64,000 nucleotides of DNA, taken from assembly GCF_004343305.1 (NCBI RefSeq), contig NZ_SMAF01000002.1, positions 142,137 to 206,136 of the forward strand, written 5' to 3'. A program made the position numbers and the translations under genes. The notes under the pieces are model-generated. The model did no database searches, was not told where the DNA came from, and worked only from the letters and a program-made list of their open reading frames with translations. Each line of letters begins with the position of its first letter. Position 1 is the stretch's first letter. Source of the stretch: Pseudofulvimonas gallinarii. Its GTDB lineage: Bacteria; Pseudomonadota; Gammaproteobacteria; Xanthomonadales; UBA2363. Shown here piece by piece: positions 35,395 through 37,398 of the stretch.

Positions 35395-35795
35395 AGCGAA
35401 CAACACGCGGTAGCCATTGCCGATGGCCTTCAAGCCCAGGGAGACGGCCAGTTGGGTCTTGCCGACCCCGGGTGGTCCGAGCACGATGACATTGTCGCCG
35501 TGTTCGATGTAGTGGCAACTGGCCAGTGTGAGGCCCTGCTTGCGGTCGATCGAGGGCTGGTAGTCGAACGATACAGCAACGACTGACAGACCCCACCAAA
35601 GTGCGCAAATGCCCGCTCATGGGTCGACAGCAGACTGTCCATCCGCTCGTTCATATAGCCGTCGGCATACCCACGGCGGCTGTAACCCAGGGTCATCTCG
35701 AACATGTGAACCCGGGGCCGCCACCTCTCCGTGGCACACCGTCACCTGACCCCAGTCCACCTGCGCCTGCTCGCCCGTCCCCGGGGCCCACGCCG
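35395..35795 (-). pseudogene. IS21 remnant: istA fragment joined to istB fragment
   Basis: Reading leftward, an IstA piece is recognisable by GEQAQVDWGQ (first catalytic aspartate region) and, in another frame, MFEMTLGYSRRGYADG and NERMDSLLSTHERAFAHFGG. A frameshift near 35705-35720 separates them. It is followed by an IstB piece with QPSIDRKQ, the IEHGDN stretch and Walker A GPPGVGKTQLA, which ends at about RVLFAACQ. Most of both genes is deleted. Outer limits are approximate. Confidence 0.75.
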
Positions 35796-35829
35796 CTAAG
35801 ATGGGTGCCCGTCATTCGGGGGCAAGATC

Positions 35830-35898
35830 AACTGCCGATTGACCTTGTCGAGCGGACGGGGCGCACCGCGATCACTGATCGTCGTACGAACGATCTTG
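35830..35898. repeat. Orphan 69-bp copy of internal IS3 orfB sequence
   Basis: These bases match 36474-36542 inside the adjacent IS3 element at 67 of 69 positions, in the same orientation. The copy ends at the left inverted repeat of the intact element. It is a fragment of a second, otherwise missing copy, or a product of a rearrangement. Confidence 0.85.
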
Positions 35899-35935
35899 AA
35901 CCGCCCCGGCTTTCGTGGAGGCTGTTTGGTTTAAG

Positions 35936-36880
35936 TCACACGGTTTCAGCGACCGTGGTTTCGGTCAGTCGCCGGTAGTAGTTTGCCTCGGCTTCCGCCG
36001 GCGGGATATAGCCAATCGGCGCAAACAGCCGTTGCGTGTTGAAACAGGCTACCCATTCAAGCGTCGCCAGCTCGACTGCTGCCTTCGTCCTCCATGGCCC
36101 GCGGCGGTGGATGAGCTCCGCCTTGTACAACCCGTTGATCGTCTCGGCCAGGGCGTTGTCGTAGCTGTCGCCGCGACTGCCCACGGACGGTTCGATGCCG
36201 GCTTCGGCGAGGCGTTCGCTGTAGCGGATGGACACGTACTGCGACCCGCGGTCGCTATGGTGGGTCAAGCCGCCGTCGCGTTCCGGACGCCGGGCATACA
36301 GCGCCTGTTCCAGTGCATCGAGCACGAAGTCGGTGCGCATGGAATCGCTGACGCGCCAACCGACGATGCGGCGGGCGAAGACATCAACGACGAACGCGAC
36401 GTACAACCATCCTTGCCAGGTCGAGACGTAGGTGAAGTCCGACACCCACAATTGGTTCGGTCGATCCGCACGGAACTGCCGATTGACCTTGTCGAGCGGA
36501 CACGGCGCACCGCGATCACTGATCGTCGTACGAACGATCTTGCCGCGCCTGACGCCCTGCAAGCCCTGCTTGCGCATCAGGCGCTCAACGGTGCATCGCG
36601 CTACCGTGATGCCTTCCCGACCAAGCTGTTTCCACACCTTGTCCGCCCCGTAGACCTGCAGGTTCGCTCGCCAAACCCGCAGAATCTCGGGCGCCAACGC
36701 CTCGTCGCGCTGCGCTCTTGCCGGACGCCGCTCAGGCTCGCGCTGGCGAGCCGCATGACGCCGGTAGCCGGACGGGGCGATCTGCAGGGCGCTGCAGATC
36801 GGCTCGACCCCGAACGTACCCCGGTGCGTATCGACAAATGCCCTCAGGACTTCAGCCGGCGGTCGAGCTCCGCCTGGGCG
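35936..36880 (-). CDS. IS3-family transposase OrfB (made by -1 frameshift from OrfA)
   Basis: The reading frame stays open from the slippery site at 36880 to the stop at 35936. The catalytic core is a DD(35)E integrase fold: aspartates in WVSDFTYV and HHSDRGSQY, and glutamate in YDNALAET. The N-terminal part ([28 protein letters not shown]) is the HTH_21 region. No good ATG opens the frame; a TTG at 36697 gives a truncated protein, so the full product is probably an OrfAB fusion. Confidence 0.92.
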
Positions 36881-37167
36881 AAAAAAGCGCTGGCCAGCTT
36901 GAGGATCTCGTTGGCGCGGCGTAGCTCCCTGTTCTCACGTTCGAGCTCCTTGACGCGCTTGGTCTCTGCCGTCGTAACGCCGGAACGCACGCCGCTGTCG
37001 ATCTCGTGCCGCTGCACCCAGGTCAACAGCGTCTGCGGGACACAGCCGATCTTCGGCGCAATCGACTCGATGGCCGCCCACAACGACGGGTACTCGGCCC
37101 GGTGCTCGTGCACCAGCCGGACCGCCCGCTCACGCACCTCTGGGGAAAACTGCTTCGACTTGCTCAT
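36844..37167 (-). CDS. IS3-family transposase OrfA
   Basis: A 107-residue helix-turn-helix protein starting [19 protein letters not shown], with the HTH in [16 protein letters not shown] and a leucine-zipper-like C-terminus ([38 protein letters not shown]). It binds the IS ends. It overlaps orfB in the -1 frame. Confidence 0.93.
36880..36886 (-). promoter_or_regulatory. Candidate -1 ribosomal frameshift heptamer
   Basis: On the coding strand the heptamer U UUU UUC occurs in the orfA frame (codons GCU UUU UUC, Ala-Phe-Phe). A -1 slip here enters the orfB frame, which is open with no stop down to 35936. Confidence 0.65.
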
Positions 37168-37217
37168 GGCTCCATTCACTCAAGAGTTGGAGCCTCCACG
37201 AATCCCGGGGCGGTTCA

Positions 37218-37398
37218 GAGGGCGTCAGGTCGAACTGCCGACTGGCCTCGGCCACTGTGGTCTTGCCTTGGATGATTTCCAGCACAAGCGCCGCCTTCCG
37301 ACGGGCTGTCCACCGCTTGATCTCTTCGTCCATCACCACGCTCATCAGTGTCTCCTTCAAGAGGTTACACCTGAGCAGGAAATCACTGGGTCATTACA
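37218..37398 (-). pseudogene. Truncated orfA and end of a second IS3-type element
   Basis: From ATG 37345, with AAGGAG upstream, the frame encodes MSVVMDEEIKRWTARRKAAL, then VLEIIQGKTTVAEASRQFDLTPSE. It is then cut at 37218 by the intact IS3 element. TGTAATGACCCAGTGATTTC on the minus strand (ending near 37398) is the probable terminal repeat of this element. The remainder is absent from the right side. Confidence 0.75.

Follow-up and report, generated by a model that had tools for sequence, protein, structure and literature searches.

The window, a 64,000-nucleotide stretch of the Pseudofulvimonas gallinarii genome, contains an rsuA-type pseudouridine synthase gene followed, from left to right, by istB and istA scraps, a 69-bp IS3 piece, a complete IS3-family element, and a 181-bp IS3-type remnant. 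The features of this insertion-sequence (IS) cluster and of the neighbouring gene are as follows:

34595–35299, minus strand: rsuA-type pseudouridine synthase gene, start at 35299 (PRK10839 and TIGR00093 matches)
35389–35568, minus strand: internal scrap of istB, the IS21 helper ATPase, residues 80–139 of 266 (tblastn and PF01695)
35559–35702, minus strand: internal scrap of istA, the IS21 transposase (NF033546)
35830–35898, minus strand: orphan 69-bp orfB piece from another copy of the same IS (nucleotide match to the intact element)
35897–37217, minus strand: complete IS3-family element, 1321 bp (inverted repeats and full-length transposase model)
35936–36697, minus strand: orfB part of its transposase, DDE integrase core (PF00665, E 2e-29; NF033516, E 6.6e-81)
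36773–36889, minus strand: predicted ALIL frameshift-stimulating pseudoknot over the TTTTTTC slip site (RF01497)
36844–37179, minus strand: orfA of the intact element, helix-turn-helix (PF01527, E 6.3e-10)
37218–37398, minus strand: left end of a second IS3-type element, comprising the tip and the start of orfA, cut after LTPSE (match to a Xanthomonas axonopodis plasmid element)

The rsuA-type gene exceeds the model cut-off of TIGR00093, and its match to PRK10839 (RsuA; E 1.8e-43, 148.8 bits) lies below that model's cut-off of 275. The istB scrap starts about 90 bp upstream of its start codon. The DNA next to the gene had been described as IS21 debris, and the comparisons agree: the istB scrap is 85% identical over 60 amino acids to a 266-aa Variovorax IstB (tblastn, E 8e-34) and matches PF01695 (E 1.5e-8), and the istA scrap matches positions 140–187 of the 294-position IS21 transposase model NF033546 (E 1.6e-10). 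An istA-like stretch in another frame seems, as read by eye from the translation, to run on to about 35785; a 43-aa piece of this continuation matched no NCBIfam model. The debris resembles the IS21 family in having both genes on one strand, istA ahead of istB, but differs in consisting of internal scraps only, with no element ends recognised. Elsewhere in the window, at 37778–39083, two adjacent frames with signal-peptide-like starts have no counterpart in Pfam or NCBIfam at E 0.001.

The complete IS3-family element

The 1321-bp element, previously described as intact, proved complete at its ends and in its transposase. Its 27-nt terminal inverted repeats (35897–35923 and 37191–37217) begin with TG and end with CA, as in the IS3 family, and pair at 25 of 27 positions (93% complementary). 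The orfA and orfB frames stand in a -1 relation and overlap at TTTTTTC, the orfB open frame continuing upstream as far as this frameshift site. The joint OrfAB frame of 414 aa is stop-free and matches the whole of NF033516, the NCBI model for IS3 transposases (363.2 bits, cut-off 160). The ALIL pseudoknot covers Rfam RF01497 from position 1 to 117 of 117 (114.6 bits, gathering score 50). Two further marks of the IS3 family are present, namely a DDE-core IS3 transposase and two overlapping frames with predicted programmed -1 frameshifting. Because of the stop-free 414-aa frame, the full IS3 model match, and the complete ALIL pseudoknot, the transposase is likely to be made by -1 frameshifting. 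To judge from its complete ends, transposase, and pseudoknot, the element may still be mobile. Its movement would be expected to follow the common IS3 scheme, in which the element is copied out and integrated by OrfA and the OrfAB fusion, the fusion arising by -1 frameshifting at TTTTTTC assisted by the ALIL pseudoknot.

The element resembles IS1416-annotated IS3 elements (Burkholderia glumae) and many unnamed relatives in its two overlapping frames and IS3 transposase, and also in its length and end pattern TGAAYCGCCCCGG. Its DNA identity is about 74–75% to IS1416-labelled records and 77.7% to the best full-length plasmid match, and the best protein match in genome contigs, among the matches listed, reaches 89%. 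A literature search on IS1404/IS1416 found nothing. The element may be an unnamed member of the IS3 family.

Flanking remnants and other copies in the genome

The 69-bp orphan IS3 piece reported in the preliminary description is 97% identical to positions 578–646 of the intact element (E 5.5e-26, far above chance) and overlaps the tip of that element by its last two bases. At IS positions 606–607, it reads GG, where the window copy has AC and a copy on contig C11 has AG. Since GG differs from both full copies, the piece comes from a further copy. The C11 copy, the second full-length one in the genome, is 98% identical to the intact element; the 32 differences are distributed along the element, and one of them is an extra base that splits the C11 orfB frame. 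At 1409–3009 of C11, this copy is bordered on one side by a helix-turn-helix frame that looks like the start of a transposase and on the other by the final codon of a patatin-type gene. C12 carries a 297-bp piece of the same kind, and C50 a 37-bp end. At 3602–3846 of C50, a cut IS3-type orfA is joined straight to the first 37 end bp of the intact element, followed by unrelated sequence, making C50 a second case in the genome of the element's own end lying against a transposase frame. A full-length relative with 71% identity is present in one of two same-genus genomes, and a partial one in the other.

The remnant on the right, 181 bp long, terminates exactly at its own element's tip at 37398, the boundary already given for it. 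From the tip inward, it shows 88% identity to a mobile element of IS3 type, which is carried by the Xanthomonas axonopodis plasmid NZ_CP031060.1 and has a DUF1153-like orfA; the match takes in both the tip and the beginning of orfA. The tip TGTAATGACCCA is common to the two, and the far end of the plasmid element carries it inverted with 3 mismatches in 18. DNA similar to the remnant occurs in 113 plasmid records, many of those listed being labelled 'transposase'. The flanking orfA frame itself gives weak matches to DUF1153 and, below the cut-off, to SciP. The alternative that this frame is a chromosomal gene was examined and rejected because it lies behind a mobile-element tip that a plasmid-borne element shares, and the earlier identification as the cut orfA of another IS3-type element is upheld.

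The plasmid element measures 2425 bp between its tips, of which the window keeps only the first 181 bp; neither the orfB transposase nor the second end of this element was found in the window. An undisrupted second element was sought elsewhere in the genome, where only partial matches on C16, C50, C26, and C12 were obtained. Part of the plasmid element is also 82% identical to the orfA region of C50, and the plasmid element may for this reason itself be composite. The intact element had been placed inside the truncated one. The second element was found on the right side only, and the scrap on the left side is of the same kind as the intact element. The stretch from rsuA to the intact element yielded no part of the plasmid element, a negative result that is weakened if this yardstick is composite. 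That the intact element had inserted into the second one was rejected as an established fact because no left half was found. Of the overall reading, the multi-event layering and the second element's being a transposon are retained, and the nesting is reduced to adjacency.

Target duplication and history of the locus

The intact element had been said to lack a matching target duplication, and it does: in the direction of the transposase, its flanks are CCCTC and AGATC, which show no match of any length. The short (3–5 bp) target duplication of the IS3 family is absent from both the window copy and the C11 copy, and none of the three window, C11, and same-genus copies has one. Pairing each of the three left-end flanks known from the genome with each of the three known right-end flanks gave nine combinations, none with a match of 3 bp or more; a duplication restored by swapping flanks among genome copies was rejected on this ground.

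At least 579 OrfB relatives were confirmed, and the best 80 loci were kept for flank comparison. Both ends and flanks could be resolved for 62 of these; the other 18 were left out, 13 because two ends could not be recognised and five because they lay at a contig end. The 62, together with the window copy, the C11 copy, and one same-genus copy, make a total of 65 in the end comparison. Among the 62 resolved relatives, 21 have a 3-bp duplication, five a 4-bp duplication, and 36 neither, and some are metagenome assemblies in which misjoins may add to the absences. The 26 duplications, against about 1.2 expected by chance, indicate that the subfamily duplicates its target, and the 36 relatives without one indicate that absence is frequent. 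The missing duplication is no bar to IS3 membership, since a duplication marks an insertion event and can later be lost by recombination or deletion. Passages of one paper ascribe the absence of target duplications to decay, inter-IS recombination, and adjacent deletion, the latter two being frequent, and propose that some insertions tied to large rearrangements make no duplication (PMC11708052). A literature search on duplications in IS3 subgroups found nothing.

Taken as a whole, the locus is very probably best explained as a heap of insertion-sequence remains in which a single IS3-family element is intact and probably functional. The layers call for several events of insertion and of deletion, as previously proposed, or of recombination. 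In the order of events and the route of flank loss that we infer, an earlier copy of the same element would once have lain at the locus, the present copy would have arrived by insertion into other copies or by recombination with them, and one original flank would have been lost, together with the target duplication, through an adjacent deletion or through recombination between copies. The other copies on C11, C12, and C50 make recombination possible. Against this explanation, no recombination partner was identified among the three left and three right ends in the genome. Simple insertion into an older copy predicts the remainder of that copy on the right side, where it is absent.

An element-free site was sought in two same-genus genomes and none was usable, both being too different at the locus. 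In these genomes, rsuA lies within a stretch conserved between both, of which the window shares rsuA alone, and parts of that stretch match other contigs of the present genome. In neither genome does the block to the right of the IS cluster share a contig with rsuA. Because the neighbours of rsuA differ and the right block lies on other contigs in the relatives, the IS cluster is placed at a synteny break. Further breaks occur nearby, the gene at 33062–34552 likewise being on other contigs in the relatives, and the cluster coincides with one of several such breaks. The rsuA-type gene (34595–35299) has no flanking DNA in common with its same-genus counterparts, as if it had moved alone. Short stretches of contig C48 (7853–11240) of one same-genus genome recur in this genome at 77–99% identity, on C1 and C13 among other places and in either orientation, and look like a dispersed repeat family.

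It is also conceivable, though unlikely, that the unmatched flanks are an assembly artefact in which reads of different IS copies were wrongly joined. The genome is in 57 contigs with a 98% identical full-length copy on C11, and C50 breaks off 91 bp past its 37-bp IS end. However, the 32 differences spread along the two full copies help the assembler to separate them, swapped flanks among the known ends yield no duplication, and the orphan piece lies outside the IS, so that a misjoin within the IS would leave it unexplained. Still less probable is that two unlinked breaks were joined by the element in a single step that made no target duplication, one of its ends attacking a sister copy. If such one-step joining had taken place, the 69-bp scrap of the element's own kind would be the footprint of a transposition-linked rearrangement.

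That the intact element prefers other transposons as targets, and hence stands among IS debris, is the least credible reading: the three known left-end flanks in the genome are IS-like (a scrap of its own kind in the window, a helix-turn-helix frame on C11, which we take to resemble an IS630-type transposase start, and an HTH_Tnp_1 orfA on C50), but the right flank on C11 is the patatin-type gene, and the flank survey gave no support, seven transposon-type or integrase family matches being listed for 93 junction frames of the 62 relatives (Phage_integrase 3, Resolvase 2, Tn3 1, Mu-type 1) against six for 108 control frames farther out (Phage_integrase 3, IstB 2, Tn3 1), with no preference visible at the coarse resolution of a survey that used the longest stop-free frames only and listed the 25 commonest families of 48 and of 126.

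Read as a heap of insertion-sequence remains around one complete element, the locus is ordinary, since scrap heaps and absent target duplications have known explanations, and its significance hardly goes further than annotation. It shows cleanly how IS copies accumulate and erode beside a housekeeping gene, includes a complete element whose frameshift pseudoknot is recognisable, and warns against taking an absent target duplication as the sign of a special mechanism.
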